Positions 1 to 15,949 of a stretch of DNA of 64,000 nt are shown in pieces. Each line of letters starts with the position of its first letter. The first letter of the stretch is position 1. The notes beneath the pieces were generated by a model. It was not told the origin of the DNA. It made no database searches and saw nothing but the letters and a program-made list of their open reading frames with translations. The stretch is from Verrucomicrobium sp. (lineage in GTDB: Bacteria > Verrucomicrobiota > Verrucomicrobiia > Methylacidiphilales > GAS474), in the NCBI GenBank assembly GCA_028283855.1, contig JAPWJX010000003.1, positions 1 to 64,000 of the forward strand, given 5' to 3'. The position numbers and the translations under genes are program-made.

Positions 1-185
1 ACGCCACAAATCGGAACAAATACGCCCCGCCCACCCCAGCGTCAGCGCATGCTTACGCTGCGCCACAGGCAGCCGCTTCGCCAGCGCCGCCACCGCCAGC
101 GCATTATCCACCGAAAGCAGCCCCTCAATCACCACCAGCGAGCCGATCGCCGGGAGCGCCTCCACCACCTCCGCCCCGGAAGGCA
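1..185 (-). CDS. TerC-family integral membrane protein, partial (N-terminus only)
   Basis: Reading leftward from the ATG at 185, the product contains LPAIGSLVVIEGLLSVDNAL followed by a LP-x-x-QR-K-x-AL segment. This is the first membrane helix and loop of the TerC/YkoY family, whose acidic and Asn residues (E-G-L-L-S-x-D-N-A) lie in the membrane and have been linked to metal-ion export. The gene leaves the window at position 1. Near 20-30 the expected continuation (AYLFRF-like) lies one frame away, because a G-run seems one base short, so the frame is broken or the read is in error there. It starts 12 nt after the pseudouridine synthase stop and is probably co-transcribed with it. Only about 60 residues are visible, so the family call rests on one motif. 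Confidence 0.55.
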
Positions 186-197
186 TCAGAAACCCCG

Positions 198-944
198 TCA
201 CGCCGCCGCCCCCTGCCCGCACCGCTCCGCCAAAAACTCCCGCATATCCGCCGGCAACGGCGCCGCGGAACTCCAGCCGCTTCCCCTGCCACCAAAAGCG
301 CAACGCCGCCGCATGGAGCGCATGGCGCGGCAAAAGCAGCTCCCGCTCCATCTCCGGCGTCCAGCCGCCCTCGATAAACCCCAAAAAAGTGTCCAGCATC
401 CGGGCCATAAATCTTATCCCCCACCACCGGCATCCCGATCGTCGCCAAATGAACCCGGATCTGATGCAGCCGCCCCTGTCCGCGGCGCCGCCCCCACATG
501 CGTAAAGCCTCCCCCGCAGCAATCCGCCACACCCGCGTCTGCGCCGCCACCCCCTCCCCACGCGGCACCACCCCCTGCCGAATACGAACCGGATTCTCCG
601 CCGTGATCCCCAGTTCCTTTAGCGAAGCCTCAATCTCCAACGCATCCAGCGCCGAAGCCATCTCCCCCCAGCAAATCGCCTCGTACTCCTTGTCTAGCGA
701 CCGGCGCTCGATCAGCTTCCCCAGCTTCCCCGTCGTCTCCAGATTCTTCGAGACCAGCACCAGCCCGCTCGTCTCCCGGTCTAGCCGATGCACCAGCGTC
801 AGATAGGCGCCCGGCCCGCTGCGCCCGCAGCCACGTGATAAGAGAGGGCTGCCCATCCAGCCGCGTCGGGTGGAGAGAAAGGATATGAGCCGGCTTATCG
901 ACGACCAAAAAATCGTCCAATTCCGCAAGGATCACCGGCTCCAT
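198..944 (-). pseudogene. RluA-family pseudouridine synthase with three frame breaks
   Basis: The start at 944 gives MEPVILAELDDFLVVDKPA, the usual RluA-family opening. Later pieces are HRLDRETSGL (the catalytic-Asp motif of RluA-type rRNA/tRNA pseudouridine synthases), GRLHQIRVHLA and VVGDKIYGPD. They are followed in a different frame by LGFIEGGWTP and RHALHAAALRF, and in a third frame by PLPADMREFLAERC and the stop. The frame changes near 825, 405 and 265. The first two fall in or beside short G or C runs and each is repaired by a single base. Once joined, the family order is complete and the length is about 250 residues, which is normal. This is either a decayed gene or, more likely given the intact motifs, an intact gene with indel errors in the sequence. 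Confidence 0.75.
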
Positions 945-1021
945 GGGAGAGAGGATGCCGAGGCATTTTGCCCTTGCCAAGGAGGGAGGAATCGCCTTGA
1001 ATTCCCGTCCCTTCGGGCAAT

Positions 1022-1097
<76 letters not shown>

Positions 1098-1134
1098 CTC
1101 TTATAATCAATAGTTTAAGATAAAATCCATCGAA

Positions 1135-1155
1135 AGTGAGAATGCGAGTGAGAAT
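1135..1155 (+). repeat. Left arm-type integrase sites (AGTGAGAAT twice)
   Basis: AGTGAGAAT occurs at 1135-1143 and 1147-1155, with starts 12 bp apart, just inside attL. The same pair with the same 12-bp spacing and orientation occurs at the integrase end. Paired short direct repeats flanking the core are what arm-binding sites of a lambda-type integrase look like. That role is inferred. Confidence 0.55.
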
Positions 1156-1174
1156 AAACACACCCGTGTTCTGG

Positions 1175-1191
1175 GACGTTCATAGACGTTC
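1175..1191 (+). repeat. Short direct repeat GACGTTC twice
   Basis: GACGTTC is present at 1175-1181 and 1185-1191, 10 bp apart, in the gene-free stretch inside the left end. One-helical-turn spacing would suit a protein-binding site such as an Xis site, but nothing else supports this. Confidence 0.25.
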
Positions 1192-1306
1192 GAAAATGCT
1201 TAAACTGTCCCGCTCAGAAACCCCACGCATTTAGAATGCGCCCATGGCTAGGGTTTGATTCCATTAGGGCTCTAAAGAAGCTTATTAAACCGGTGAAGTC
1301 CTGTTG

Positions 1307-1321
1307 CCGCGATTATCGCGG
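1307..1321. repeat. Perfect 15-bp odd palindrome downstream of the 1326-1787 ORF
   Basis: CCGCGAT-T-ATCGCGG is perfectly symmetric and begins 4 nt beyond the stop codon of the leftward ORF at 1326. It has no T tract, so it is a weak terminator candidate. It could equally be a protein-binding site. The surrounding 1098-1325 holds no convincing gene. Confidence 0.35.
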
Positions 1322-1325
1322 AAGA

Positions 1326-1787
1326 TCATGCAGATGCTGTTCGTCTCCCCTTCATTCGCCGAACCTTACGTTTGTGATGCCACTCCCAATAGCTCGGAAG
1401 GTCGAGATAAAGCTGCTGCGTGATATCTGCAAGATGTCGTAAATTATCGACATGCACGAAAGGGGGCTCAACTAATTGAGCATGCTTACCCTTCTTCTCG
1501 CGATAGGTCTCTTTTAAGTGGTGTTCGCAGAAAAGCTCGGTTCCAGTTAGCATAATGACCGCCACTCTGGTCTTTTGCCGATCCTTATCAAATTCGCGTC
1601 CCCATTCAGCAAATCGACGTAATTTCTTGAGTTCTCCTTTGCTGAGTTCGGAGGCCTCCTTCATCGTCGCAAAAACTATGATTGAGCATGGAAATGTTTC
1701 CGCGATTTCCATCATTCGGTCAAAATCATCGTCAAGAAAACACTCCTTTCCGAAACTTTTTGCCTCACTGAAAAGCTGCAGCTCCAA
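1326..1787 (-). CDS. Hypothetical protein, probable 5'-truncated remnant
   Basis: About 150 residues are readable from a possible TTG start at 1787. The frame stays open upstream only to a TGA near 1836, and no ATG or GTG with a ribosome-binding site is present. The sequence begins mid-domain. It has a hydrophobic strand (SIIVFATMKE), a basic segment and a C-terminus rich in His, Trp and Arg (YWEWHHKRK). Upstream of the TGA the same frame reads MPFRDLSCI, so one nonsense change could separate two parts of one gene. It lies 83 nt downstream of the AIPR gene, at the tail of the defence operon. I do not recognise the family. It may be the surviving end of a seventh operon gene. Confidence 0.5.
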   Translation of the reverse strand: MELQLFSEAKSFGKECFLDDDFDRMMEIAETFPCSIIVFATMKEASELSKGELKKLRRFAEWGREFDKDRQKTRVAVIMLTGTELFCEHHLKETYREKKGKHAQLVEPPFVHVDNLRHLADITQQLYLDLPSYWEWHHKRKVRRMKGRRTASA

Positions 1788-1870
1788 AACAGAAATAAAA
1801 GATTGGAGATAAAACCAACGATTTTGCGATCATATGCAGCTGAGATCCCGAAACGGCATAAAATGAGGAA

Positions 1871-3865
1871 TCAAATTTTGAAACCAAGCCGAGAGGATTC
1901 CTCCAGAATGCGCGTGGCATGCTGGAGTTGCTTCTCGCTTGGCTGTTTCCTGTCAGTTAAAACCCTTCCCACGCTGTAGGCCAAAGAACGCTGCCAGGAT
2001 TGCAGATTCCCGGTCTCCTTTGCCCAAGCCGCAAGGCTTTTCCACCCGGCCCCACCGAGAAGGAGCACGGGATGACCGGGATCAATCAGAATTCCCACGG
2101 GCGTCTTCACCTCGCCATTGGTTCCGGATTTGCGCATGGGAATTTTCACTGAAATCTCAGTCTTTCGAAATCCAACCCAGCACTCCTCCCGTTTGGCCCA
2201 TTCTGTGACATTTCTTCCACCAGCGTTGTGAACAAGGTGGTAATGTGCCTGTTCGGCCACCTTGGCGATGACTTCCTTCAGTTCTTCAGATAACCCCTGT
2301 TCCTGCCATATCGGATCAAGCTCAAGCCGTTGACCGGTTTGATGGGAGATCCATGCCAGCGTATAGGTCACAATCTGAGCACGATAACCCCCAAAAGCTT
2401 GAGCTTGGACAACCCGCTCGGTGGTTCGGAACAGGATGAGTTTGGCAACAAGACTCCGGAAAGCCAATTCATCCGGCATCGTCGGCTGTTCCCTCAGTCT
2501 TTCGGTAAATTCGACAAAGTTTTTCTCTGCCCCAAGACACACGAGATTTGGATGCTGTCCCCAAGTATTTTCAGCCTTTGCGAGATCTGTCTTTGTGAAT
2601 TTCTGATGCGGAGGATGCTGAATCTTGAATTCCTTTTTCTTTGCCTCAGTCGGAGCCCGTCCAATCGCGTCCATGTAAGCGCCTCTGGCTCTTTCGTAGA
2701 ACCATTTGGTGAGAATGTTGGAGCCAGCCGGCGCCGGAGCCCATATGGACCTGGACAACTTCTCCATCGCAAGATGATAGGGATCGTTGGCGGAAAAATC
2801 CGCCGTATTCACCTTATTCTGGGTATTGGCATACTGGGAAATTTTCGGTGCCAGAATGTCTATGGAAGCGGGATCGGAAGGACAGGTGAGTTTGATTTGG
2901 ACGAGGATATTGGAGATATCCGCCTTATCCTTTTTCCATGCTGTGTAGAGTGAGGCCGTCGTCTGCCCTCCGTTGACAATCTGGAGACTCTTCACATGAG
3001 TGAGAAAGCAGACTCCCCCCTCATTTTGTGCAAAGCGCACCTCATCTGCAGTAGCGGATAAACCGTTGTTATATGCCAGAAAGCGTGCCGGCTCCTTCAA
3101 AATGGAATTACGAATGCCCTGATTGATCTTGCCTCTGGACTGAAGAAAAGTGCGCACGTTTCTTTCAAGAAGCCGCGGCCCATATTTTTCATATATTCGC
3201 ACCAGCAAGGTTGCGGGCAGAAAACCAAGATAGGTGGCATATTCGCCATCCTGGCTTGCGGTACCCAGACAGGTGAGATGGCCCTCAAAATCGCTTTGGA
3301 AATCAATTTCGATGGCAGCCACCGCACTACCAGAGGTGGAAACCCTGTGAAGACGATTAATGTCCCAGAGATGATGGGTCAGCTTAATGTCACCGATACT
3401 CTGGTCGCTGATGGACTGCTCCCGGGCAATCGCATCTGTGATAAGATAGAGCCTTGCTCTGGTGATTTGATCACGGTGATGATGAATATCATGTGCCGCC
3501 TCCCACTCCGGCGCCGATTCCTCCAATTTCAGCCGAAGATTCGACTGCAGGCATGTCGAAAGAAAACCCCTTAACCATTCAAAGTATTTTTCGACTTCTG
3601 CATTGGAAATTCTTCCCGGGGGGGTGCTTTCATCCCGGCACGTTACAAACAAATCCACACAATCCCCGTCAGAGGAGATATTGTAGGCATTCACCTTCAT
3701 CCCGCGGGCCTTATAGGAACAAAGATGGAAGTCCTCAGCCTCTCCTGCCGCCATGATGATGTTTACGGCCTCTTCCGTGAAGACATCCTCCGGAAACCTG
3801 TCACTGCTTTCCGCATTTGAGGAAACCGATTGCCGAAATTCCAATATCCATTCCTCAAGATTCAT
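1871..3865 (-). CDS. AIPR-family protein (abortive-infection phage resistance)
   Basis: The 664-residue product has the AIPR family core: RNVRTFLQSRGKINQGIRN at about 236-253, YNNGLSATA at 265-273, SLQIVNGGQTTASLY at 293-307 and ISQYANTQNKVNTADFSAND near 345-365. The family is named after a lactococcal abortive-infection protein and recurs in restriction-type gene clusters. Its biochemical activity is not settled. The N-terminal 200 residues carry no signal peptide or membrane segment, so it is cytoplasmic. The ATG overlaps the stop of the upstream nuclease gene by 4 nt, which makes it the last complete gene of the six-gene operon. It may be an effector or a DNA-processing subunit, and the sequence does not decide which. 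Confidence 0.88.
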   Translation of the reverse strand: MNLEEWILEFRQSVSSNAESSDRFPEDVFTEEAVNIIMAAGEAEDFHLCSYKARGMKVNAYNISSDGDCVDLFVTCRDESTPPGRISNAEVEKYFEWLRGFLSTCLQSNLRLKLEESAPEWEAAHDIHHHRDQITRARLYLITDAIAREQSISDQSIGDIKLTHHLWDINRLHRVSTSGSAVAAIEIDFQSDFEGHLTCLGTASQDGEYATYLGFLPATLLVRIYEKYGPRLLERNVRTFLQSRGKINQGIRNSILKEPARFLAYNNGLSATADEVRFAQNEGGVCFLTHVKSLQIVNGGQTTASLYTAWKKDKADISNILVQIKLTCPSDPASIDILAPKISQYANTQNKVNTADFSANDPYHLAMEKLSRSIWAPAPAGSNILTKWFYERARGAYMDAIGRAPTEAKKKEFKIQHPPHQKFTKTDLAKAENTWGQHPNLVCLGAEKNFVEFTERLREQPTMPDELAFRSLVAKLILFRTTERVVQAQAFGGYRAQIVTYTLAWISHQTGQRLELDPIWQEQGLSEELKEVIAKVAEQAHYHLVHNAGGRNVTEWAKREECWVGFRKTEISVKIPMRKSGTNGEVKTPVGILIDPGHPVLLLGGAGWKSLAAWAKETGNLQSWQRSLAYSVGRVLTDRKQPSEKQLQHATRILEESSRLGFKI

Positions 3866-4866
3866 TCTCCTCCCTTGCCCAACAGGGCACTTATTGCCGA
3901 CCCTTCCTTCATGCGAAATGGCTCGCAGGCCGATAAATCCAAACTATACCCCAAGTCCCCAACGCCTTCAGGAATGCTTTCCGAGGCAATATGCGGGAAT
4001 TCCTTTCCCACCTGATACTCGCGCCTTTCAACCAGACGAAGGCTTTCGCCCCGGTATTCCTCCTCATGTGCTGATAGATAACCGCCTTCAAGCAGTTTCG
4101 AGCCAAACATTTGTTCGGCAACCCCCGTGCCAAGCAGGTGTCTGATTGTCGCCACCTCCTCAGGAAGGGAAACCCCGTCGGCCACAACACGCTCAAACAT
4201 CATCGCCACCAATGAAAGCGGGCGATGATCCAGTGATTCAAGCTGTCGTTCGCCGTGTATTCGTATCTTGTATTGCCGTTTGGTGGCAGTTGCCTTGACT
4301 TCGGTTCTTGCATGGGGCGATTGAAAGTCGGTTGTCAGTTTTTCCGGACCGGTCCACCAAGTCAGTACCGAAAGAGGATCCCCTCCCGCCAAAATGAGAT
4401 CCTTGAGGTGTGTCAGCTCGGCAAGCAACCCAAGGCGCTCCTCAAATCCGAGTCCTTCCGTGCGCCTGCTTTCAAAAAGTCGCCTCCATAACAGAAGACG
4501 TCCTGAAAAAACCTCCTCTGCCTCCTGGGAGGGAGATCGCTGTAAAACAGATGTGGCCACATCCTCGCATAGGCTTTCAAACACCGCGATGGGTGTGCCC
4601 GCCGTGCTTTCTATGATGATGCTGGGTTGTGAACGCGAGGACAGATCCAGAACCGCATACTTTGTGGCATAACCCTCACTTGACGTAAGAATCGTACGAA
4701 TTTCCCTAGTGAGAGGTCCCTTGCAGGCAAGCACCAGCATTCTGACATTCCGCGCAGTGTCCATTGCAGCATAAAGCTGATCGGATGGGTTTGGGGAAAG
4801 ACGGCGGGCGATGAATCCGTGGACACCGGACTCCCCGATTTTAGACCACGCCTCTTTGATGTTCAT
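3862..4866 (-). CDS. PD-(D/E)XK-fold nuclease of the DUF4420 family
   Basis: The 334-residue protein has the DUF4420 nuclease signature. GLLAELTHLKDLI places Glu150 in the first helix, followed by WWTGPEKLTTDF with Asp180 and TEVKATATK with Glu189-x-Lys191. This E...D...ExK order is the catalytic set of the PD-(D/E)XK restriction-endonuclease superfamily. DUF4420 proteins are regularly found in gene clusters with Z1 and GHKL proteins. It overlaps both the upstream Z1 gene and the downstream AIPR gene by 4 nt. It is the most likely DNA-cleaving subunit of the system. Cleavage specificity cannot be read from sequence. Confidence 0.85.
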   Translation of the reverse strand: MNIKEAWSKIGESGVHGFIARRLSPNPSDQLYAAMDTARNVRMLVLACKGPLTREIRTILTSSEGYATKYAVLDLSSRSQPSIIIESTAGTPIAVFESLCEDVATSVLQRSPSQEAEEVFSGRLLLWRRLFESRRTEGLGFEERLGLLAELTHLKDLILAGGDPLSVLTWWTGPEKLTTDFQSPHARTEVKATATKRQYKIRIHGERQLESLDHRPLSLVAMMFERVVADGVSLPEEVATIRHLLGTGVAEQMFGSKLLEGGYLSAHEEEYRGESLRLVERREYQVGKEFPHIASESIPEGVGDLGYSLDLSACEPFRMKEGSAISALLGKGGE

Positions 4867-7718
4867 TCCAAATCAAAATCCTGCGTTGCCGCATAGACAT
4901 GGTTCACCATGTAATCAACCCCATCACCCACATTGGCTGTCTCGGAAGGAAAGCTTATCGCAAAACCGAAAACAACCTCTTCCGCTATCGGTAGAAAAAT
5001 AGGTTTCCCCTCCCCAGCGACATACTTGGGATCGAGTGGGTAGAGGAGAAGGAGCCCATTGTTTTTTCCCCGTTGGTTGCGGATATCCGGACCCAATGCA
5101 TAATCGGGCACCTCCTTGTCTTTTTTGGCAGCCGCCTCTTTGCTTGCGGAATAGGCCGCATCATACTGTTCCTTGCTCAGATCGGCCGCCTCGTGTTTTG
5201 GACTGACCAATCTTTTGATGGTATACTTTGTCAACGGTAGTACGGGAGGTTCCAAACCTTCATAGAGCTTTATCTCAAGAGGTTTTCGTTCATAGAGACC
5301 AACTCCCTGAGGAAAACCCGGAAGAACCACTTCCTTCTTCTTATCCTCATTACTGACAATGCCGATTGTCCAGGATGTCAATTCCCCTTGGGAGACTCGG
5401 CGCCTGATGAATTTTGCCAGCATTGCCGAATCAACGCGTTTGGCATCAACATGGGTTTTGTACTGTTCCAAAAACCCGACTACCAAGTCGGGCGACTGAT
5501 TCCGCCAAATTCGGGCCGACCCCTGCGTGGACAGTGAAAAAGGGCCGTTTGCCGCCAGCGAGGCAAGCAATCCTTTGGATGCCTCAAGATTCAAGGCAAG
5601 ACGTGGTGGCGTAAGATCAAAAATGATGGTTTCGTTCAGGGTTCCATTAAATGAAACGCGCATTGGTGTGCCATTGCGCATTTTGTTCAATCCCGTTATG
5701 AGCATCCCGCTGGGATGCATCCTCACTCGGAGCCCGTAGTCCATGGGAGTCGCATGGATATCGGCCATGTGATCCAATTCCAATCTAAGCTCCTCTGATG
5801 CCAGCGCAATATGCCGATACCATTCCCTTAGATCCCCCGGCAGGAACAGACGACAAACATCCACATACCCTGGTCGGTATCCGAACCAACGCCCCATTTG
5901 CATGAGAGTGTCGTACATTTTTGATGTGCGTAGAAAATAACTTACAGAAAGGCCGTCGAGCGTAAGGCCACGGGAAAGCTTGTCCCCACCAATTGCAATC
6001 ACCGAAAGACCATCAGGATGATTGTGATAATCAAGGGCATCGCCGGCCGACCCATTGATTACCCTGACCTGAATCAAGGCGGCCGAATCTTTGATTTCCG
6101 CTTCAATTTTCCCCCAGTTTAACGCGGTGATCATTGGATCATCCGTCACGGATTTTATGGAAGCGAATTTACGTTGAAATTCCGTTTCCCAACGATTCCT
6201 CAGTTCATCAATAATCGAGGGAGTGCGTTCCCCGTCACCATATTTGATCCGATTTTGAAGCAAGGTCAGGTGTTCCCCAATCTGCTCTGCAACCGAGTTC
6301 TGGGTTGAAGTGTAACGCGTAACATGGACCAACATCGAGTTGTGAACCCGGGTCTGTCCCCGGGCCCGTCTGGTGGCACAGGCTAAGATAAAATCGAGGA
6401 TGGCGGTATTCAGTGATTCGGGCAGAGGGCCCGTGGGTCGGGTGCCATTTTTATGAGGTGTGGGCAGCCATGATGACGCATCGTCAACTTCAAGAACAAT
6501 CCCAAGGCCTGGTTCGGCGGGAATCCCCGCATCCGAAGACCCATCAAATCCAAAGACTTTTGCGGGACCAATGTAGTTGGAAGGGACTGGAAGGCTGATA
6601 ATAAAGTTGCGGGGGAAAAGATTGGCACCGTGCTTCTCCGAACTCTCCTCGGGATCGATGAAGATATTTGCGAAGGGCGTGGCGGTATAACCGACATAAG
6701 CGCTTTTCTCAAAGAGACCCAAAAGTTCCCGGATTTTTCCATTGATTGCCGTGACATCGTATTCCGGAAGGGGAACTCCGTCGGAATCGACAGGTATCGC
6801 CTTGGTGTTAATCGATCCGTTATCAGCCTCGTCATCGATGAGAAGAAACGGAAGATCGCGAATAAGGCTGGCTCCTCCATTGCCATCATCCTCCGCCTGC
6901 TGCGAGAGCCACACGATCAGATTTTGAAGGATGCTTTTGTTTTTTTTGACGACCAAGTACACCGGCGTACCACCGCCCGGCTTCACATTGATGCTGGTAG
7001 CCGCCGCCTTTGAAAAATCGCCATTGTCGGCGCTTCCGGTCAGGGCGTCACATCGCAGTTCTTCCGGTGTTTTTACCAATCCGACCCCTGTTCTCTTGGT
7101 GCCTTGGCCATAGGCTGTCGCTCTTGTTGTGTTGAATCCAAAAAAACCCTCGTCGAGACGTATCTGCGTCTGGCTTCTAAGGCTTTTCTGCATTCCACCC
7201 AGAATGATTATCAATTTATATCCGGCATCCGCCGCCTTGCAGACCAATCCGGCATAATTCGCTGTCTTGCCGGACTGAACGCTCCCCATCACCATTCCGC
7301 GGGTATCCCAAGCCCCGGCACGGGTGGGATCCTGAAGCAGGGACAGGATCTTATCCGTTACGCTGTCGAGCTTCGCCACGAGGGGCTCCGGCCAGCCATC
7401 CTTTTTTGTACGAAGCCATGTTGCATATCGGTCCCAGAAGCGCCATTTGATCGACGCTTTCTTTGTGGGCAGCCAAGGAATATGCAGCGTTGAGTCGACC
7501 AAGACGGATTCAACACCGACTGTCACATTGCAATTTGCCAATACCCTGCATATTACCCATTCAGAATCGGGTTTTGTGTCCGCATTGCGGGGGACACTTT
7601 CACATGCCTTTGCCACCGCCTCCCGGATTTCATCCATGGAGGGCGCACGGGTGTGCATCAGAAGAGCCATTGCAACCGTCAAAGCGTGCTGATTGATCCG
7701 GTCTTGAACATCATTCAT
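4863..7718 (-). CDS. P-loop ATPase/helicase with Z1 domain
   Basis: The 951-residue protein opens with about 130 non-conserved residues. A superfamily-II-like motor follows: Walker A GSVQSGKT at 145-152, strand KLIIILGGM at 168-176 and Walker B LLIDDEAD at 292-299. The middle carries the Z1 signature IGGDKLSRGLTLDGL, then TLMQMGRWFGYRPGY, which resembles helicase motif V/VI sequences. Z1 proteins were described from gene neighbourhoods with MORC-like GHKL ATPases and methylases. The role is probably ATP-driven DNA translocation or remodelling that couples recognition to cleavage. Starts and stops overlap the neighbouring genes by 4 nt on both sides. The C-terminal 300 residues have no motif I recognise. 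Confidence 0.9.
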   Translation of the reverse strand: MNDVQDRINQHALTVAMALLMHTRAPSMDEIREAVAKACESVPRNADTKPDSEWVICRVLANCNVTVGVESVLVDSTLHIPWLPTKKASIKWRFWDRYATWLRTKKDGWPEPLVAKLDSVTDKILSLLQDPTRAGAWDTRGMVMGSVQSGKTANYAGLVCKAADAGYKLIIILGGMQKSLRSQTQIRLDEGFFGFNTTRATAYGQGTKRTGVGLVKTPEELRCDALTGSADNGDFSKAAATSINVKPGGGTPVYLVVKKNKSILQNLIVWLSQQAEDDGNGGASLIRDLPFLLIDDEADNGSINTKAIPVDSDGVPLPEYDVTAINGKIRELLGLFEKSAYVGYTATPFANIFIDPEESSEKHGANLFPRNFIISLPVPSNYIGPAKVFGFDGSSDAGIPAEPGLGIVLEVDDASSWLPTPHKNGTRPTGPLPESLNTAILDFILACATRRARGQTRVHNSMLVHVTRYTSTQNSVAEQIGEHLTLLQNRIKYGDGERTPSIIDELRNRWETEFQRKFASIKSVTDDPMITALNWGKIEAEIKDSAALIQVRVINGSAGDALDYHNHPDGLSVIAIGGDKLSRGLTLDGLSVSYFLRTSKMYDTLMQMGRWFGYRPGYVDVCRLFLPGDLREWYRHIALASEELRLELDHMADIHATPMDYGLRVRMHPSGMLITGLNKMRNGTPMRVSFNGTLNETIIFDLTPPRLALNLEASKGLLASLAANGPFSLSTQGSARIWRNQSPDLVVGFLEQYKTHVDAKRVDSAMLAKFIRRRVSQGELTSWTIGIVSNEDKKKEVVLPGFPQGVGLYERKPLEIKLYEGLEPPVLPLTKYTIKRLVSPKHEAADLSKEQYDAAYSASKEAAAKKDKEVPDYALGPDIRNQRGKNNGLLLLYPLDPKYVAGEGKPIFLPIAEEVVFGFAISFPSETANVGDGVDYMVNHVYAATQDFDLE

Positions 7719-9208
7719 TGCTGTTTCTCCATGTATTCAAGAAGGTTTTCCATGATGGCCGGATACAGGTTGAAGGGCTCGGCATTACGGAGATGGTTCA
7801 TGGCATCCTCCCTTGACCTTCCACTTTTAATGATAGATTCCACACACTGGGCAAAGAGTTTGTAGATTTCGATTTCCGGCACGCCCTCAAATGGTCCAGC
7901 CAAGGCGTCCTCCTTCTGGGAGCATTCAAGAACTATGGCTGGCACCGGGATGGACTCCTCGATCAGCCGCAGCAGAGATTCCATCTCTGATTTCCGTTCG
8001 CCCGCAGCCTTTAGGCTGGCGGCTACTGTGGGATGCTTTCGACTGATCTCGTAATGAAGCTTGGATCGGACAGTTTTCTGTATCCAGACAAACGATGCCT
8101 CCGCCTTTTCCCGACCTATGATTTTTCCTCGGTGACGATATACTGCTGCCGCACGGTCCCGGGTTGCCTTTGCAAGCTGGGTGAGCCTTCTCCTCAAACC
8201 ATGAGGAACAACGGCACGGGACTTTTTTACGTCCAGATCCCAATAACGATCGATTGTATTGGGGATATCCACACTGATCCGGGCCAGTTTGTAGTGCTCC
8301 TCCTTGCGGGGTCCCAGACCAAGCCAATCCCCCGCCACCAACAACCGCTTGTTTCGGTAGACGTAAAAGCCCTGATTCGCAAGCCAGCCCGCCGAGCCCC
8401 CCGCCTCCTGCCATTCATGCTCAGGAAGCTTGGTGTGGTGGGGCAAGATATGACAGGAGACAATGATGCGCTCTCCCTTGAAATGGATTTCGCTCTGTTC
8501 CGGATTCTGACACGCCGGATGACCCGTTATAAAGGGATCCCAAGGCTTTACGGTGTTTCCATTGATTTGGAGATGAATTTTCCCGGGTCCGGATATAAAT
8601 CGGTGAAAAGTTATTCCCAGATGCGTTTCCACAGTGGCTGCCAAGCCGAGAAAGCTTTCCTGGCTTGAAAAAATATTCGCATCATCGGACTCAGAATCGC
8701 AAACCCTGTCGAGATTTTCCCAGAGAACCACAGTCCCTGATGTTCGAATGCTTTTTGCGGCTGATTTAAGATTATCCCCCCGGCCTGGCGTGACCTCCCA
8801 GCTTTCTGTCTTTCTGACGTGATCCAAGTCCCAGCAGAGTGAGATTGTCTCCTCGTCAGCCCGCTTGGTTATGACGGTTAGCTTCAGGCATTGAGAGAAG
8901 GAGGCGGTCTTTAAACCAAGGCCGAAACGCCCGAGATCCGATTTTTTTCGCTTTTCCCTAGGATCTTTCGACCCCAACCGCATTGCCTCAATCAGCTCGG
9001 CCTGATCCATTCCATTCCCATTGTCCCAGATCGTGATGAAGGAGTTCCTTCCGGCCCAATGGAAATTGACTCTTATCTCATCCGCACCGGCACTGATGGA
9101 GTTATCAATGATATCGGCCAATGCTGTTGTCGTCTCATAGCCAACCGATCTTAATGACTCCACCATCACTGATGGACGGGGAGGAATGGTGACACCCGCC
9201 TCGCTCAT
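7715..9208 (-). CDS. GHKL ATPase, paraMORC type
   Basis: The start was placed at the ATG at 9208. It overlaps the methyltransferase stop as ATGA, has an AGGGAAGAG ribosome-binding site and begins the conserved domain. An upstream in-frame start would only add shadow sequence. The 497-residue product shows the Bergerat ATP-binding fold: N-box ADIIDNSISAGA at 31-42 (Asn36), G1 box DNGNGM at 62-67 and G2 box GRFGLGLKTAS at 93-103. Position 32, where MutL and GyrB have the catalytic Glu, is Asp. The ATPase domain is followed by an S5-like segment and a basic helical C-terminus. MORC-like GHKL proteins next to Z1 and methylase genes are known from R-M-like neighbourhoods, where a clamp-like remodelling role was predicted. 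Confidence 0.87.
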   Translation of the reverse strand: MSEAGVTIPPRPSVMVESLRSVGYETTTALADIIDNSISAGADEIRVNFHWAGRNSFITIWDNGNGMDQAELIEAMRLGSKDPREKRKKSDLGRFGLGLKTASFSQCLKLTVITKRADEETISLCWDLDHVRKTESWEVTPGRGDNLKSAAKSIRTSGTVVLWENLDRVCDSESDDANIFSSQESFLGLAATVETHLGITFHRFISGPGKIHLQINGNTVKPWDPFITGHPACQNPEQSEIHFKGERIIVSCHILPHHTKLPEHEWQEAGGSAGWLANQGFYVYRNKRLLVAGDWLGLGPRKEEHYKLARISVDIPNTIDRYWDLDVKKSRAVVPHGLRRRLTQLAKATRDRAAAVYRHRGKIIGREKAEASFVWIQKTVRSKLHYEISRKHPTVAASLKAAGERKSEMESLLRLIEESIPVPAIVLECSQKEDALAGPFEGVPEIEIYKLFAQCVESIIKSGRSREDAMNHLRNAEPFNLYPAIMENLLEYMEKQQ

Positions 9209-10734
9209 CTCTTCCCTGCCATTATTTTCCAGACCACGTTTGCAAGCTTGCGGGCAAGAAGAGGGGGAACCGCATTTCCAACCTGACGATACTGGGCTGT
9301 TCTGGATCCACAAAAGAAGTAATTATCGGGAAATGTCTGAATTCTTGCCGCCTCCCTTACAGTGAAACTTCTGCACTGCGTTGGATCATAATGAATGTAG
9401 TAATGGCCATCCTTTGCAATATGGCTGGTTATGGTTCGGCAAGGTTGTGATGCCGGGTTTGCCCGAAAACGGTCATTGAAAAACCGCTCCTTGTTTTGAT
9501 CGAAAATATTGGCGTGATCCGGAAGCAATTCGTCTGGAAACTTCTGAAGATTGGGCGAGACCCCCTCTGATTTGGCATGGCAGGAGGAAAATAGGTATCG
9601 GTGTAGATCGGATTCGATGTGCGCCCGCGAACTGTGGTTGGCAACACCCCCCATATGCGGGTCGATAAACCATGTTGCTTCCGAGTGGAGGGTGTAGGGC
9701 CTGCATGCAACAAACTCACCGCCACGATCTTTTTGAGGGCGGTTGATTCCATCCAAGGACTCCTCAATGGTTTCAGCCAGCTTTTCACCCCCCCTCCTTT
9801 TGATTGAGGAAAGATGTGTGCGGATGCCACGCACCGCCGTCACCCATTTCTCAAAGTTATCCTCCCCACTCTGGGACAGTCCGCTTCGAAGTCTTGGCAG
9901 TCCCTGAAGAACCTGTGAAATTGAGCATGGTTTTGATGACTTGAGAAGAATGCTAGGCTGATCCACATCCAGATCCTCCCGAATTCCGAGAAGGATCACA
10001 CGATGCCGCATCTGTGGTATGCCATAATTTTCACATTCAATGATGTAATCGGCCGCCTTGAATTCCGGAGACTTTCCAGAGGGACGGCTCCTAGCCTCTT
10101 TTGAAAATGAAAATATCCGGTAGCGCTTTCCACCAATGATTCCTGTCGCGCCTCCGGGATCACGCAAATCCTCAAGAATTCTCTGGAAAATCGAGCCATC
10201 AATGTCGGCACTCAACAATCCCTTCACGTTTTCCATTACAAAAACAGATGGACGAAAACGCGCAACAATGCCCAAATATTCCCGATAGAGCCCGACTCGC
10301 ACATCGGTCTTTTTGATGCCCCTGTTTCTGGCGCGCCCGATTGTTGAATAAGCCTGACAGGGGGGGCCGCCAACAAGAACCCAGTCCTTTGCGCCGTTCA
10401 GGGCCGCCGCAATTCTGCGATGGACTTCACCGGCCGGGGTGATACCCAGGGTGGCTCTCCAAGCCTCCTCCTCCGCCTGTTGTCTTTGAAATGGCCACGC
10501 CTCGTAAAGATTCTCAAGTGAGATTTCCCCACGGATCATCCTGTAGTAGTCGTCCGGTTTTCGACGCGTGAATGCGCGATAAAAGGCACGAAGACTGAGC
10601 GTGGAGTGCGCCCACTCCTCCATTTCAATCGAAAGCCTGATGTGGAAGGGGTGGCTGCCGACCTTGGAATAGGATGAGAATCCTTCCCCGAGTCCACCAG
10701 GTCCGGCAAACAAGTCAATTACAGGAATGTTCAT
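9205..10734 (-). CDS. dcm: DNA (cytosine-5) methyltransferase
   Basis: The 509-residue protein has the C5-methyltransferase motifs in canonical order. Motif I is DLFAGPGGLGEGF at 7-19. Motif IV is GGPPCQAYS with catalytic Cys126. Motif VI is ENV at 168-170 and motif VIII is QMRHRVILLG at 241-250. Motif IX is PCRTITSHIAKDGHYY and motif X is RQVGNAVPPLLA near the C-terminus. The target-recognition region between VIII and IX is long, about 200 residues. It should mark self DNA for the restriction subunits downstream. It overlaps the Vsr-like gene before it and the GHKL gene after it by 4 nt each. The gene symbol denotes the family, not the E. coli recognition site. Confidence 0.95.
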   Translation of the reverse strand: MNIPVIDLFAGPGGLGEGFSSYSKVGSHPFHIRLSIEMEEWAHSTLSLRAFYRAFTRRKPDDYYRMIRGEISLENLYEAWPFQRQQAEEEAWRATLGITPAGEVHRRIAAALNGAKDWVLVGGPPCQAYSTIGRARNRGIKKTDVRVGLYREYLGIVARFRPSVFVMENVKGLLSADIDGSIFQRILEDLRDPGGATGIIGGKRYRIFSFSKEARSRPSGKSPEFKAADYIIECENYGIPQMRHRVILLGIREDLDVDQPSILLKSSKPCSISQVLQGLPRLRSGLSQSGEDNFEKWVTAVRGIRTHLSSIKRRGGEKLAETIEESLDGINRPQKDRGGEFVACRPYTLHSEATWFIDPHMGGVANHSSRAHIESDLHRYLFSSCHAKSEGVSPNLQKFPDELLPDHANIFDQNKERFFNDRFRANPASQPCRTITSHIAKDGHYYIHYDPTQCRSFTVREAARIQTFPDNYFFCGSRTAQYRQVGNAVPPLLARKLANVVWKIMAGKR

Positions 10735-11183
10735 TTGCCCTTCAAAGCGGTCTTTTCAAAAGCATTAGATCTTTGGGAAATTAATCTGGTGAGACGGGAG
10801 ATGCAGTATCCTGGATTTCTGCGCAGATCACCCTCCCAGAATCTGACTGGCATCCATCCTTTTTCTTTTAGGATCCGATTGACGTGACGATCCCGCCTCC
10901 GGTTGCCCTCAATTTTTTTCCGCCAAAATTCCACATTGGTTCCTGGAAGCTTTGAGCGGGTTGGATGTCCATGCCAGAAATCACCATCCACAAACACCGC
11001 CAGCCGGATGGACCGGAATACGAAATCAGGTCGTCCGTAAAGATTCTGCCTTCTTCTCCAGCCTGTAATTCCAAATTTCTTCATCAAAGTGATCAGGCAA
11101 AGCTCCGTCGAGGCATTGCCGCCCCCCCGTATTTGAGCCATGACCAGAGATCGCTTTTCCACTGTAAAAACATCGGGACACAT
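10731..11183 (-). CDS. vsr: Vsr-type endonuclease, first gene of the defence operon
   Basis: The 150-residue product aligns with very-short-patch-repair endonucleases: RSLVMAQIRGGGNASTE, GRPDFVF with catalytic Asp53, AVFVDGDFWHGHP at 62-74 and NVEFWRKKIEGNRRRD. Vsr nicks T:G mismatches formed by deamination of 5-methylcytosine and commonly sits beside dcm. Here the Cys of the usual GCFWH motif is Asp, and the later Cys of the EC-x-L element is Gly. The structural zinc ligands of E. coli Vsr are therefore missing. It may still repair mismatches or may act as a restriction nuclease. The ATG at 11183 has no obvious ribosome-binding site. The next gene starts in its stop codon (ATGA). Confidence 0.88.
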   Translation of the reverse strand: MCPDVFTVEKRSLVMAQIRGGGNASTELCLITLMKKFGITGWRRRQNLYGRPDFVFRSIRLAVFVDGDFWHGHPTRSKLPGTNVEFWRKKIEGNRRRDRHVNRILKEKGWMPVRFWEGDLRRNPGYCISRLTRLISQRSNAFEKTALKGK

Positions 11184-11307
11184 CTGAACGGAACAGGGTG
11201 AGAGATGAGAGGCTAGATGGCCTAAAAATACAGGGCGAGGCTGATTTTAAAGGATCGAAATGTACAGTGATCAGATCCCCAAAATTGAACCCGTCTGTGA
11301 GACTCGA
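11184..11307 (-). promoter_or_regulatory. Gene-free stretch expected to hold the defence-operon promoter
   Basis: This 124-bp interval separates the FGE-sulfatase gene stop from the vsr start, both leftward. It is A/T-richer than the genes and contains TTAAAAT on the minus strand near 11250, which could be a -10 element. No convincing -35 box or terminator hairpin was found. It is the only sizeable gap upstream of the six overlapping genes, so transcription of the operon should start here or be read in from upstream. Confidence 0.35.
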
Positions 11308-12249
11308 TCACCTGACCACTAAAACGATTCGAAAGCCAATGGTGGAGCGATGGGTGCCAGGGAAGGCGTAATCACGTGCTGAAGTCTTGATGTCCAAACC
11401 GTCCTGCCATGAAGAACCTCGCAAAATCCGATGGGTCTTTCCTTCGTCCGGCACATATTGCTTCTCAACGAAATTTTGCGAAAAAGGCATTCCGTCCGGC
11501 CCGGCGGTCATTTCTGGATCCTTCACTCGGATCTCTTCGCCAAACCAGTCCATGCACCACTGCCAAACATTCCCACTCATATCGTAAAGCCCGTAAACAT
11601 TTGGAAGAAAGCTACCGACCGGACTCGTTCGAGGAAATGAATCATTGTACCCTGAGATAATCTCAAGGTTTGTCGGCCAATCGGGCGCACGCACTTCCTC
11701 TCCCGCAAAATTCGCCGCGTCTTTGGGAGGAGGCCATTGATTGCCCCAAGGATACACTCCAGGGCCGGCGGCCTGACTCCATTCGTCATCCGTCGGCAGG
11801 CGATATTCTTGTTCGGCCTTCAACGTTCCGTCGGCACGCTCTTTCCCCGTCAACCAAGCACAAAAGGCCATGGCATCGTCCCAGCTTACATCCACCACCG
11901 GGTCATCCGCACTCTGCTTAAAACCGGGCTTTTTCCAATCCCCTGAGGGTTTTCCATCGGGGTCATTCTCCTGATAAACCCCTTCCGGGATGTATCCAGA
12001 CTGTGCCACAAAAGCCTCAAAATCCTTTACACGCACGTCGTATATCCCAAATAGAACTTGGCGATCGGGAATAGGACAAAATTTCATTCCCAAACTATTT
12101 TGCCAAGGTTCCCCATCCTTAAGATCGATACCCTCTGCGGCAAAGATTCCAAATTGAAAAACGAGGATAAAAACAAAAGGAAGTCCCCCAAGCAGACGCC
12201 ACTCGCGATTGCTGAAGTCTTGCATGTTAATGAGGGATGACAAAGGCAT
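11308..12249 (-). CDS. Secreted FGE-sulfatase (SUMF1-like) domain protein
   Basis: An N-terminal hydrophobic stretch (LLGGLPFVFILVFQFGIFAA) is a signal peptide or anchor. The rest is a formylglycine-generating-enzyme/SUMF1-type domain with NSLGMKFCPIP, VVDVSWDDAMAFCAWLTG, YRLPTDDEW, PWGN, YDMSGNVWQWCMDW and RGSSW...GFRI. The paired cysteines of true FGE (the RGGSW-xx-C region) are absent, so sulfatase activation is unlikely. Such domains also occur as ligand-binding (CLec-fold) modules. The start is uncertain: ATG at 12249 follows a GGTGG stretch, GTG at 12258 lies upstream and ATG at 12225 gives a tighter signal peptide. It follows, and depending on the start overlaps, the coiled-coil gene. 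Confidence 0.8.
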   Translation of the reverse strand: MPLSSLINMQDFSNREWRLLGGLPFVFILVFQFGIFAAEGIDLKDGEPWQNSLGMKFCPIPDRQVLFGIYDVRVKDFEAFVAQSGYIPEGVYQENDPDGKPSGDWKKPGFKQSADDPVVDVSWDDAMAFCAWLTGKERADGTLKAEQEYRLPTDDEWSQAAGPGVYPWGNQWPPPKDAANFAGEEVRAPDWPTNLEIISGYNDSFPRTSPVGSFLPNVYGLYDMSGNVWQWCMDWFGEEIRVKDPEMTAGPDGMPFSQNFVEKQYVPDEGKTHRILRGSSWQDGLDIKTSARDYAFPGTHRSTIGFRIVLVVR

Positions 12250-13021
12250 TACCGCCACCCAGTCCGATCACCGAATAACTGGAGGGATCGCTTTTTCCTG
12301 CTGGGTCGCCTTGTTCATCTGACAAGCTCGAGCCGTATAACTCCGCCTTTCTCTCGTAAGCCATTTGTACGCCTGGAGAAAGCTTCTGCCACTCCTGCTC
12401 TGCGTATATTTCCGCTTGGGCATTGCTCAAGCCCGCGAGCGGACCTCCAGTATAATGCGCTCCTTTGTTGTTCAATATGTACCGTCCCGATTGGCTCTTT
12501 AATTCGTTGAGATAGCGCCTAAAGCCATTGACGGTCGGTTTTGGAGACGTCGAATCAACCGATTTTTGGGCACCATTTTGAGCCAGCTTGGTTTGAATGC
12601 CCCTGAGTTGCTCCTGAAGCTTGTTGATCATCTCCTCCTTTTCATTCGCGGCATCCAAGGCGTGAGCCAGCCCGTCAGACAACTCACTGTCCTTTTGGGA
12701 AAGGGCAGCAACCACCGACCTTTCTGCTTCCGCTTTTTGCACAGCCTTCTCCTTTTCGCGCAAAGCCTCCTCCCGATCTGCTTGGAGCTTTTTTAGATTT
12801 TCCTTAAGCGATGCCTGCTGCCCGTTCATCTCAGCAAGAAGCTGCTGTTTCTCCGCCAATGCGTTTTGAAGTCCCTCTACCACTGTCTGGGAGTCTTTTC
12901 TGGCAGCCTCCATCATGGACACCGTTTTCTGGCGTTCATATTGGTGAACAAGAATCATTCCTCCCGTTGTGCAGATGATTGCCGATATCAATGCCCCCAT
13001 AGCCTGTTGAAAGATGCCCAT
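12227..13021 (-). CDS. Membrane-anchored coiled-coil protein with HMG-box-like C-terminus
   Basis: The 264-residue protein has one membrane helix at about 8-27 and then a long charged coiled coil at about 35-148 rich in Glu, Lys, Gln and Ala. A Ser/Pro linker and a globular tail follow. The tail (about 160-230) reads PTVNGFRRYLNEL...LSNAQAEIYAEQEWQKLSPG-x-Q-x-AYERKAELY. Its pattern of an aromatic helix, a W-x-x-LS turn and Y-x-x-KAE is that of an HMG-box. I know no bacterial family with this exact layout, so function is unassigned. It is transcribed divergently from the XRE regulator and followed by the FGE-sulfatase-domain gene, with which it probably forms an operon. Confidence 0.7.
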   Translation of the reverse strand: MGIFQQAMGALISAIICTTGGMILVHQYERQKTVSMMEAARKDSQTVVEGLQNALAEKQQLLAEMNGQQASLKENLKKLQADREEALREKEKAVQKAEAERSVVAALSQKDSELSDGLAHALDAANEKEEMINKLQEQLRGIQTKLAQNGAQKSVDSTSPKPTVNGFRRYLNELKSQSGRYILNNKGAHYTGGPLAGLSNAQAEIYAEQEWQKLSPGVQMAYERKAELYGSSLSDEQGDPAGKSDPSSYSVIGLGGGNAFVIPH

Positions 13022-13058
13022 AAATTTGTTCCGAAAAGCGTTAGTAAGATGAATTAAG

Positions 13059-13112
13059 TACGCCCCGTTGGGCCGTGTTGGTCAACATTCAAATACGGCG
13101 TAATGGGGCGTA
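13059..13112. promoter_or_regulatory. Inverted repeat between the XRE regulator and the coiled-coil operon
   Basis: TACGCCCCGTTGGGCCGT at 13059-13076 and ACGGCGTAATGGGGCGTA at 13095-13112 are inverted copies matching at 15 of 18 positions, separated by 18 bp. The right half overlaps the first start codon of the XRE gene. The location in the divergent gap fits an operator used by this regulator for autoregulation and control of the leftward genes. This is inferred from position and symmetry. Confidence 0.55.
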
Positions 13113-13339
13113 TGCCCTTGACGGCTGAAGAACACAAAGTTCTGAAGAGACTGGGAGAAAATGTCCGACGCTCTCGCGTTGCTTCTGGCTCCACACAGGA
13201 GCAGCTGGCAGAAAAGGCTGATCTGAATCCGAGAACGGTCCAGAAGATCGAAGCGGGCCGCCTCAATATCCTTGCTACGACCATTTACCGCATTAGCCGG
13301 GCCCTGAAGGTGGGTGCGACTGACCTGCTGGGCCCTTAA
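13103..13339 (+). CDS. XRE-family HTH transcriptional regulator
   Basis: The 78-residue protein is a single lambda-Cro/CI-type helix-turn-helix domain: LKRLGENVRRSRVASGSTQEQ, LAEKADLNPRTVQKIEAGR and TIYRISRALKVGATDLLG. There is no second domain, as in small phage and island regulators. Two start codons are possible, ATG at 13103 and ATG at 13112. The inverted repeat ends exactly at the second, which would suit self-repression. It is divergent from the membrane coiled-coil gene. It may control the element's accessory operon or its excision and replication genes. Confidence 0.88.
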   Translation: MGRMPLTAEEHKVLKRLGENVRRSRVASGSTQEQLAEKADLNPRTVQKIEAGRLNILATTIYRISRALKVGATDLLGP

Positions 13340-13389
13340 ATTGGTTAAAAAGACGACCTTTATCCCTATCCTTACGGCGGCGGGATGGC

Positions 13390-13413
13390 TTTGTTAACCG
13401 GTTTTTAAGACTG
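13390..13413 (+). repeat. Repeat copy A (TTTGTTAACC...GACTG)
   Basis: A 24-bp sequence beginning TTTGTTAACC and ending GACTG recurs at 14695-14716 with one mismatch and a 2-bp gap. This copy lies between the convergent XRE gene and the small gene at 13405. Confidence 0.4.
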
Positions 13414-13421
13414 GCTTAAAA
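13403..13421. terminator. Possible bidirectional weak terminator
   Basis: TTTTAAG-ACTGG-CTTAAAA is a perfect 7-bp A/T-rich inverted repeat between convergent genes, followed rightward by TTATTTT. The stem is weak, and it overlaps the stop codon of the leftward small gene. Confidence 0.35.
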
Positions 13422-13593
13422 TTATTTTCTGATCGAGCTGGCGCTCCAAGGTAGCGACGCGTTCCTGAAGGCACTTGCTTATCTTCACCTGCATTTCCAC
13501 CTCCACTTTCAGACTGCCTACCATCTCAAGCATTGCATTGAAGAGAACTGGATCAATGGGCGGTTCCGGAGGCTTATTCTTTTTGAAAATCAT
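13405..13593 (-). CDS. Small hypothetical coiled-coil protein
   Basis: The 62-residue product has a basic Pro-rich start (MIFKKNKPPEPP) and then one continuous amphipathic helix (MLEMVGSLKVEVEMQVKIS...VATLERQLDQ). It looks like a small coiled-coil or oligomerisation protein. The ATG at 13593 has a GAAGAG-like stretch a little upstream. No family is recognised. Composition is like its island neighbours. It is convergent with the XRE gene. Confidence 0.5.
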   Translation of the reverse strand: MIFKKNKPPEPPIDPVLFNAMLEMVGSLKVEVEMQVKISKCLQERVATLERQLDQKIILSQS

Positions 13594-13744
13594 GGAGTGC
13601 TCTTCAGTGACAACTTGATCCTGCCCCTAAAGCCTCAATCACAATCCTCTTCGGACCTATAGCCGAATGATTTAAGAAGCCGCTCCCACACCCGTTCAAT
13701 AGTTTGCTCCATCGCGGGCATTGAATTTGAAAATACAACTCTAG

Positions 13745-14668: not shown

Positions 14669-14694
14669 AATAGCCTCTACGTTCTGCCGCCTAT

Positions 14695-14716
14695 TTTGTT
14701 AACCAGTTTTTGACTG
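14695..14716 (+). repeat. Repeat copy B, upstream of the sigma factor
   Basis: This 22-bp sequence starting TTTGTTAACC and ending TTTTTGACTG matches 13390-13413 with one mismatch and a 2-bp gap. It lies in the divergent gap between the WG-repeat gene and the sigma factor, where it could be a binding site or part of a promoter. TTGACT inside it resembles a -35 box, but no -10 box at proper spacing is clear. Confidence 0.4.
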
Positions 14717-14743
14717 ACGGAACGGGGTTGGTAAGCTGACTTC

Positions 14744-15454: not shown

Positions 15455-15475
15455 ACCCAATTAGGTTCTGAAACA

Positions 15476-15949
15476 CTATCCATCTTGGAAGTTCACGCTC
15501 GGCATTTGATCATCTGGAGCGGACGGGTTGAGTTTTTTGGCGGCCTTAGCCGCCGCTTGGTCGAGAACGGCTTGGAGAGACTTTCGCATGGCGGGGCTGT
15601 TCTCCAGCCGTTCGCGGATGGTGTCGAGGCTTTCCTTTTGCACGCTGACAATCTCCTGACGCTGGATGGGCAAGCCAATCATGTAGGAGGCGTACATCTT
15701 TGCACCAGCCTCGCGGGCACTCCAATCAGGCACATCTCCGTAAACTTGATGATTCACCAATGCCCGCTTGGTGGCAGTCATCAGGTTTAGAAGGTTCTGC
15801 GCAAATACCTCAGGTGGGCATAGTGTCGCCATTGCCCGCGTAATGGATGGAGCGATCTCTGTAGGAGTAGGCGTGTGGCCTGCGAGGATTTTCTCCGCTC
15901 GTGCCTGCATATCGGCCTTTATTTTAGCTGAAATACTTTGAGGTTTCAT
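15476..15949 (-). CDS. Hypothetical protein, possibly small-terminase-like
   Basis: The 157-residue protein is largely helical. A central block (LLNLMTATKRALVNHQVYGD, then VPDWSAREAGAKMYASYMIG, LP) resembles the VPDxxAR...AL/YxxxxG block seen in many phage small-terminase-like proteins. A charged helix and an Ala/Lys-rich tail follow. If so, it is the only packaging-type gene here, which is typical of satellites that redirect a helper phage's packaging. The match is a motif-level impression only. The ATG at 15949 lies next to a GTACTGTAC site. Confidence 0.4.
   Translation of the reverse strand: MKPQSISAKIKADMQARAEKILAGHTPTPTEIAPSITRAMATLCPPEVFAQNLLNLMTATKRALVNHQVYGDVPDWSAREAGAKMYASYMIGLPIQRQEIVSVQKESLDTIRERLENSPAMRKSLQAVLDQAAAKAAKKLNPSAPDDQMPSVNFQDG

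Follow-up and report, generated by a model that had tools for sequence, protein, structure and literature searches.

What would an operon of six minus-strand genes that join a Vsr-like endonuclease and a C5-cytosine methylase to a GHKL ATPase, a Z1-domain protein, a DUF4420 protein and an AIPR protein do, which of its products would cut DNA, and what would be the part of AIPR? The operon occupies positions 1871-11183 of the 64,000-nt stretch of Verrucomicrobium sp. DNA that was analyzed here (hereafter, the window; contig JAPWJX010000003.1). We favor, with a probability of about 0.6, the reading that the operon, which lies on an integrative island, encodes a MORC-Z1 (MZA-like) restriction-modification system that depends on ATP. 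In eukaryotes, MORC ATPases are chromatin proteins about which little is understood, and their bacterial relatives are predicted to function in systems such as this one. The analysis of sequence comparisons and structural models described below turns the questions of the cutting subunit and of the role of AIPR into claims, namely that the DUF4420 protein is the predicted cutting subunit, that the nuclease-like domain of the AIPR protein is apparently dead in the window's branch, and that Vsr is probably a repair enzyme. The six open reading frames (ORFs) listed in a first-pass annotation of this DNA, as well as their domain assignments, stand up in Pfam searches:

10731-11183, minus strand: Vsr-like very-short-patch repair endonuclease (Pfam Vsr, 63.3 bits; TIGR00632, 96.4 bits; alignment to 1CW0 at 5e-15; conservation in 45 sequences)
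9205-10734, minus strand: C5-cytosine DNA methyltransferase with catalytic Cys126 (Pfam DNA_methylase, PF00145, 149.8 bits; motifs kept in 57 sequences)
7715-9208, minus strand: MzaB-like MORC-family GHKL ATPase (HATPase_c_3, 112 bits; NCBIfam MzaB, 473 bits; PADLOC MzaB, 422 bits; MORC motif); an additional upstream TTG start lies at 9313
4863-7718, minus strand: MzaC-like SF2 helicase/translocase with a Z1 domain (NCBIfam MzaC, 744 bits; Pfam Z1, 275 bits; motifs in 80 sequences)
3862-4866, minus strand: MzaD-like DUF4420 protein, putative PD-(D/E)XK nuclease (Pfam PF14390, 186 bits; NCBIfam MzaD, 124 bits; invariant columns; structural model)
1871-3865, minus strand: MzaE-like AIPR protein (Pfam AIPR, 317 bits, and AIPR_N, 142 bits; NCBIfam MzaE, 425 bits; fold comparison; residues)

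The last four proteins, hereafter the core, are homologs of MzaB, MzaC, MzaD and MzaE of the MZA anti-phage system (mzaABCDE), which reportedly comes from the work of Gao et al. (2020), and are encoded in the same B-C-D-E order (PADLOC, 422, 642, 80 and 317 bits; NCBIfam, 473, 744, 124 and 425 bits, respectively). None of the four reaches its own NCBIfam equivalog cut-off (850 for MzaB, 1500 for MzaC, 420 for MzaD and 1050 for MzaE), so the operon is denoted here MZA-like rather than an MZA equivalog. There is no gene for the sigma factor MzaA among the six genes of the operon; a sigma-70 gene at 14744-15454 (plus strand, 236 aa) was considered as a candidate for MzaA and rejected, the match to MzaA being of 36 bits and confined to the sigma part.

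A search of genome contigs yielded at least 584 Z1 relatives, of which the best 80 loci were kept, so that the counts given below apply to close relatives; a second set of 47 loci comprises 9 from the 14 further Z1-bearing genomes of the window's phylum and 38 places from the phyla of loci L031, L049 and L023. The four core genes are present anywhere in the locus in 73 of the 80 loci, and 64 of these 73 also contain a C5 methylase, with six of the nine methylase-less core loci located on contigs that are cut close to the core. In the second set, 29 of the 47 loci have the complete core, and 28 of these have a methylase as well (25 of 26 without near-copies), the sole exception, L151, being cut by a contig end; AIPR was undetected in 15 of the 47, most of which have weaker Z1 scores or are truncated. 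The six-gene same-strand order was sought in other genomes and was found in 7 of the 80 and 4 of the 47 loci, and the same order with a divergent Vsr in 11 of the 80 and 2 of the 47 (L170 among the four and L154 among the two nearly duplicate loci of the first set). An MzaA-type sigma factor is encoded in 20 of the 80 loci, 14 of these with a methylase, and in 6 of the 47; five of these six also hold both the methylase and Vsr, which indicates that MzaA is no substitute for the methylase. Two of the 38 matched plasmid records were examined, having been chosen because they are annotated: pDG3-1d of Agrobacterium salinitolerans carries, in order, vsr (divergent), dcm, ATPase, Z1, PD-(D/E)XK and AIPR, and pCSC3H3 of Thalassospira marina carries a sigma factor, ATPase, Z1, PD-(D/E)XK, mzaE, a restriction endonuclease and a C5 methylase. 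In the phylum of L031, MzaC matches (E < 1e-40) were detected in 19 of 398 genomes, in that of L049 in 13 of 395 and in that of L023 in 8 of 396, each count including the seed genome; Z1 is present in 15 of the 387 genomes of the window's phylum, its own genome included, and absent from the single other congener sampled. The window operon is a real, well-conserved member of the already described MZA-like/MORC-Z1 family.

The core proteins retain the motifs expected of their families. The MORC motif GhXhhpXXRhl (PMC2292703) appears in the GHKL protein as GFYVYRNKRLL, starting from residue 280. The Z1 protein contains a Walker A motif, GSVQSGKT, with Lys151 present in all 80 aligned sequences, as well as DDEAD and DTLMQMGRWFG, the latter matching the helicase motif DThhQXuRhFG of the same work, also in 80 of 80. 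In MzaD, E150, D180, E189 and K191 are invariant in all 48 aligned sequences (the window plus 47 from the 69 listed ORFs) and correspond to the E-D-ExK signature given there for the RE fold. In the structural model of MzaD (predicted local distance difference test, pLDDT, 94), E150 belongs to a helix and E189-x-K191 to a strand, in the expected order. No solved structure was found by sequence at E < 0.1 for MzaC, MzaD or MzaE. The motif and topology are compatible with MzaD being a PD-(D/E)XK nuclease, and it is the predicted cutting subunit. The residues named in the first-pass annotation, Glu150 and Lys191 of the DUF4420 protein, the Walker A lysine and Cys126 of the methylase (56 of 57 aligned), are all conserved.

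The AIPR protein appears to be a disabled nuclease, at least in the window's branch. Its model (pLDDT 88; predicted template modeling score, pTM, 0.61) consists of a PD-(D/E)XK-like N-terminal domain followed by the AIPR domain. In a fold comparison, residues 1-183 match AF1548 (an entry titled as of unknown function; Z = 9.2, 113 residues aligned at 3.3 Å), FokI (8.6), MspJI (8.1), HamA (7.6), BspD6I (7.0) and SduA (6.4); this support is moderate given that the usual best Z of the tool without a clear relative is 7-8, and Foldseek alone gives no match at E < 0.001. In the alignment of 46 MzaE sequences (the window plus 45 from the 62 listed ORFs, the L018 row being the second AIPR of that locus), the column that holds the catalytic Asp in nuclease-type AIPRs is occupied by Asn in 25, Ser in 18 and Thr in 3, and there is no Lys within residues 70-77 in any of the 46, the placement of the Lys column being uncertain. 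Another 11 AIPR proteins, none encoded beside a Z1 match, were aligned (L103, which is truncated, and the weak matches L112 and L113 were left out): six of these (L102 and L104-L108) have D...(Q/T)xK, in the form D...QxK in L102 and L105-L108, L114 is without the Lys, and L109, L110, L111 and L115 are without the motif. Thus, the N-terminal domain of MzaE is nuclease-like but apparently devoid of catalytic residues in the window's branch.

This pattern bears on an abortive infection scenario, in which AIPR would be a cell-killing effector that is freed when a phage disturbs the complex, with the other genes serving as sensors. The name and family assignment of AIPR (Pfam) and its occurrence away from Z1 genes fit such a role. 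However, with the aligned Asp and Lys lacking in all 46 sequences, the obvious toxic activity of MzaE seems to be gone, even if the AIPR domain could hold another one, and we consider this scenario improbable. The AIPR domain itself yields weak fold scores with ParB-N (Z = 5.8) and SspE (4.4-4.5), and the motifs NGGQT and DGQQR in the middle domain of AIPR hinted at kinship with DUF262/ParB. An hhalign comparison of the AIPR domain with 30 DUF262 sequences gave no support, with a positive control (other AIPRs) at 99.9%; this relationship is a lead only. The AIPR domain may bind nucleotide.

A second potential cutting activity is that of the Vsr-like protein, which the first-pass annotation counted among the genes of a defense operon and thereby implied to be a restriction nuclease. 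The protein scores 96.4 bits with TIGR00632, slightly below the cut-off of 97.85, and retains D53, H71, D98 and E117, the first three of which are present in 45 of 45 aligned sequences. The window copy has Asp68 where 39 of the 45 have Cys and Gly118 where 33 have Cys; with these common cysteines, which presumably have a role in zinc binding, missing, its specificity could differ. Nevertheless, Vsr is very improbable as the restriction nuclease: it was not found in 20 of the 64 loci with the core and the methylase, its place being taken by a MIG-like glycosylase in five of the 20, and is often encoded on the opposite strand. Across the 80 loci, Vsr is present in 46 and a MutY/MIG-type glycosylase in five (L003, L004, L018, L019 and L051), all five with a methylase, and the two never occur together; in the second set, Vsr is present in 36 of the 47 loci, and the glycosylase was detected in none. 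The probability of this avoidance by chance is about 0.012 for the 80 loci and 0.003 for the 66 methylase loci, by a hand calculation that does not control for relatedness; three of the five glycosylase loci come from Methanocalculus, Methanoculleus and Methanosarcina. The glycosylase of L003 (229 aa) is equally similar to MutY (1.5e-37) and to the G-T mismatch repair enzyme of structure 1KEA (2.3e-37); by eye, it has LHRT versus the LQQT of MutY structures and shares RHTRDPY and VDAN with 1KEA. No other repair enzyme was found in 5 of 39 candidate flanking ORFs from Vsr-less methylase loci, which were scanned along with 5 further ORFs. The alternation of Vsr and the glycosylase is the pattern expected of a T:G repair partner for a 5-methylcytosine methylase, and Vsr is probably better interpreted as such a partner than as a defense nuclease. 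The prediction of a defense or restriction operon, for its part, is supported by the MZA homology, the conservation of the core and of its methylase and the location on an integrative island.

Whether the methylase and Vsr belong with the core at all has to be considered separately. Pairwise distances within the core correlate strongly (rho 0.57-0.76), compared to 0.00-0.15 between the methylase and the core, 0.13-0.24 between Vsr and the core, and 0.33 between the methylase and Vsr. Under a stricter rule, by which the methylase has to be close and no shorter than 330 aa (52 loci, the window among them), the methylase correlates weakly but above label shuffles with MzaB (rho 0.15, p = 0.007), AIPR (0.14, p = 0.023) and MzaD (0.12, p = 0.04), and its correlation with MzaC is not above the shuffles; among 31 independent loci, rho is 0.82 for MzaB-MzaC and -0.07 for MzaB-methylase. 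By these distances, the core is one unit, and the methylase and Vsr are exchanged, evolving almost independently of it; the exchanged methylases presumably differ in their sites.

This independence, together with the variable strand and place of the two genes, suggests an alternative with two neighboring modules, a self-standing methylase-Vsr pair and a methylation-independent MzaB-E complex that would sense phage replication or DNA ends. In Caulobacter, a Vsr-like protein is harmful to cells without a solitary cytosine methylase, so that such pairs can be self-stabilizing (PMC12907096), and mzaABCDE, the namesake set of MZA, is without a methylase (PMC9523054). The linkage described above points the other way: the methylase accompanies the complete core in 64 of 73 first-set and 28 of 29 second-set loci and is also present in five of the six second-set loci with MzaA and on both plasmids examined, which tends to argue for one function. 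We regard the two-module arrangement as unlikely.

A more novel possibility is that the core has no fixed site, MzaB-E being one co-evolving machine aimed by the adjoining C5 methylase as an exchangeable specificity subunit, and AIPR serving, as a pseudo-nuclease, to sense what state the site is in. If so, swapping the methylase would re-aim the nuclease. This idea is speculative and, in our estimate, quite unlikely. In a covariation search for the specificity determinant, the candidate segment 281-350 of MzaB followed the methylase in the 52 loci once core distance had been removed (r = 0.33, family-wise label-permutation p of about 0.001) and still ranked first in the pooled 83 loci (r = 0.21). 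It was dropped because the covariation did not replicate in the 31 independent loci, where the 281-330 segment ranked only 15th of 69 and the top segment, at p = 0.001, was one of Walker A, which indicates that label permutation does not control for phylogeny.

Under the favored reading, that of ATP-dependent restriction-modification, the C5 methylase would mark host DNA as self, the MORC ATPase MzaB would close as a clamp on unmarked incoming DNA, MzaC (SF2/Z1) would translocate on DNA, as proposed for N.CglI, and MzaD would make the cut. MzaE, with a decayed nuclease domain and a conserved AIPR domain, might act as a non-cutting sensor or scaffold, and Vsr would restrict nothing and instead repair T:G mismatches that arise by deamination of the system's own 5-methylcytosine. 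The gene content, the conserved motifs, the lack of catalytic residues in the MzaE N-terminal domain of the window's branch, the alternation of Vsr with the glycosylase and the conserved linkage are observed here, and the formation of a complex, the order of the steps and restriction itself are inferred. The scheme with a MORC clamp and a Z1 translocase is preferred because these findings combine with what is known of CglI/NgoAVII, where the Z1-containing N-protein is a dsDNA-dependent ATPase required for cutting (PMC4267653), and with the GHKL-gated nuclease that the authors of the VcSduA work put forward as a hypothesis (PMC12137116). For the methylase step, Pin25611FIII of Prevotella intermedia offers a precedent. 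This C5 methylase, whose gene shares a segment with AIPR and Z1 genes, is active on GCWGC by bisulfite analysis, with 66% of 11 sites protected (PMC5608340).

Several points weigh against this reading. The distances between the methylase and the core are nearly uncorrelated (rho from -0.07 to 0.15), which is odd if the nuclease and the methylase share one site and raises the question of how the core would recognize it, and no core segment that tracks the methylase in the 52 loci was replicated in the 31. For the MzaD model, there is no convincing PDB match (best Foldseek hit with E = 0.013 and TM-score 0.18; best VIA hit with Z = 5.2, N-terminal part only), so the nuclease fold rests on Pfam, the motif and topology. 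Of the 32 MzaE proteins in the wider set, the Asp is retained in 10 and a Lys occurs within the strand in one (L160); thus, the loss of catalytic residues is complete only in the window's branch. Finally, the Prevotella methylase was tabled as an orphan by its authors, with a potential endonuclease nearby (PMC5608340).

The first-pass annotation also emphasized the 4-nt ATGA start/stop overlaps at all five junctions (10731-10734, 9205-9208, 7715-7718, 4863-4866 and 3862-3865), every one of which can be read in the sequence, and deduced from them a fixed subunit stoichiometry by translational coupling. Such overlaps are a common spacing in operons. Among the readable junctions of the 80 loci, a 4-nt overlap is found at MzaB/C in 32 of 71, MzaC/D in 23 of 70, MzaD/E in 18 of 66, methylase/MzaB in 3 of 26 and Vsr/methylase in 1 of 9, and all three core overlaps occur together in only four loci. 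In the window, a purine-rich stretch resembling a Shine-Dalgarno sequence is visible by eye ahead of every downstream start, so that the overlaps permit coupling without showing fixed stoichiometry, and the deduction is not supported. The identity and conservation of the genes are far beyond chance, whereas the overlaps are less special; their pattern in the window is a local feature at the extreme end of a loose trend.

The operon is carried on a low-GC integrative element of about 18.8 kb (1022-19914) at tRNA-Gly, which is marked by a tyrosine integrase and a 30-nt repeat of the tRNA-Gly end; the guanine-plus-cytosine (GC) content is 0.49-0.53 over 2 to 20 kb and 0.65-0.75 beyond:

1022-1097: tRNA-Gly(gcc)
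1068-1097, plus strand: probable attachment repeat, the 3' end of tRNA-Gly(gcc); imperfect 30-nt direct repeat, 83% identical to 19885-19914
18611-19816, minus strand: tyrosine integrase of the island (Pfam Phage_integrase, 51 bits)
19885-19914, plus strand: probable attachment repeat, distal copy of the same 30-nt repeat

A gene for an FGE-sulfatase-domain protein (11308-12258) lies upstream of the operon, and a short ORF (1326-1787), followed by tRNA-Gly, lies downstream. The other cargo of the island includes a WG-repeat protein, the FGE-sulfatase-domain protein, a small sigma-70 and an IstB-like ATPase. Another contig, C4 (L196, G000:C4:1-6000), repeats the island end (window 1-2722) at about 97% identity and contains a 2.7-kb segment (955-3685) that is missing from the window at 1772-1774. 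Given that a 754-aa ORF of C4 (1711-3975) ends in the same sequence as the ORF 1326-1787, the latter may be what is left of a truncated gene; neither Pfam nor PADLOC yields a match to it. The two versions of the island end may reflect either an assembly error or a strain variant.

Several observations on related loci are worth recording. Four cyanobacterial loci (L008-L011) encode Z1 and DUF4420 proteins, with GHKL and AIPR undetected, and thus resemble a reduced version of the system. A further GHKL protein of about 720 aa, with HATPase domains at both ends, adjoins a protein of about 490 aa in L078 (13723-17363), and second GHKL genes are found in L019, L051, L053 and L074 as well; the additional GHKL and 490-aa proteins perhaps represent two-component-like elements linked to restriction systems (PMC8011034). 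Relatives of the Z1 protein are also present in five short human-gut records labeled 'Bacteriophage sp.' (MT836521, MT836482, MT839664, MT835895 and MT838009), possibly as prophage cargo or mislabeled host DNA.

Among known systems, the PADLOC best match of the methylase alone, DrmMII (304 bits), would point to DISARM, which was rejected because the DrmA and DrmB partners are lacking beside it, with no match to a Drm model in the other six proteins scanned. CglI/NgoAVII resembles the window operon in combining a DNA methylase with a Z1-containing SF2 ATPase that drives cutting (PMC4267653) but differs in having three genes, with a PLD+B3 nuclease in place of DUF4420 and no MORC or AIPR gene; no PLD+B3 domain of the R-protein was matched by Pfam in any of the six window proteins. 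The Pin25611FIII segment differs in a C-protein gene ahead of the methylase, in the orphan label and in that nuclease function was not demonstrated there. No mechanism paper on mza or Z1/MORC systems is among the literature matches listed, most subscription journals being outside their coverage. The first-pass annotation was right that neighborhoods of MORC-like GHKL, Z1, methylase and nuclease genes had been predicted as restriction systems: Iyer, Abhiman and Aravind described MORC, SFII helicase, RE-fold nuclease, Dcm, Vsr and AIPR as recurrent neighbors in 2008 (PMC2292703), in a prediction work the first two of whose four parts offer no mechanism for AIPR. In 2022, a Z1 protein, a PD-(D/E)XK protein, a C5 methylase and AIPR were presented as a putative type II defense system that recalls mzaABCDE (PMC9523054); it has these four components and the MORC association in common with the window, the DUF being printed there as DUF4220, and 'known DNA repair endonucleases' are assigned to type I of the system, Vsr being unnamed in the relevant section. 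The novelty of the gene set that the first-pass annotation implied is therefore pre-empted by these two works and by MZA itself, which is known here through PMC9523054 and the NCBIfam and PADLOC models. The window operon has the MzaB-E homologs of MZA in the same order but differs in the missing MzaA, the sub-cut-off scores and the methylase and Vsr within the operon. What the present analysis adds is a set of clues, to AIPR as a disabled nuclease, to Vsr as a probable repair partner, and to a methylase and Vsr that evolve almost independently of the core, along with the suggestion that MZA, catalogued without a methylase, usually belongs to a restriction-modification system.

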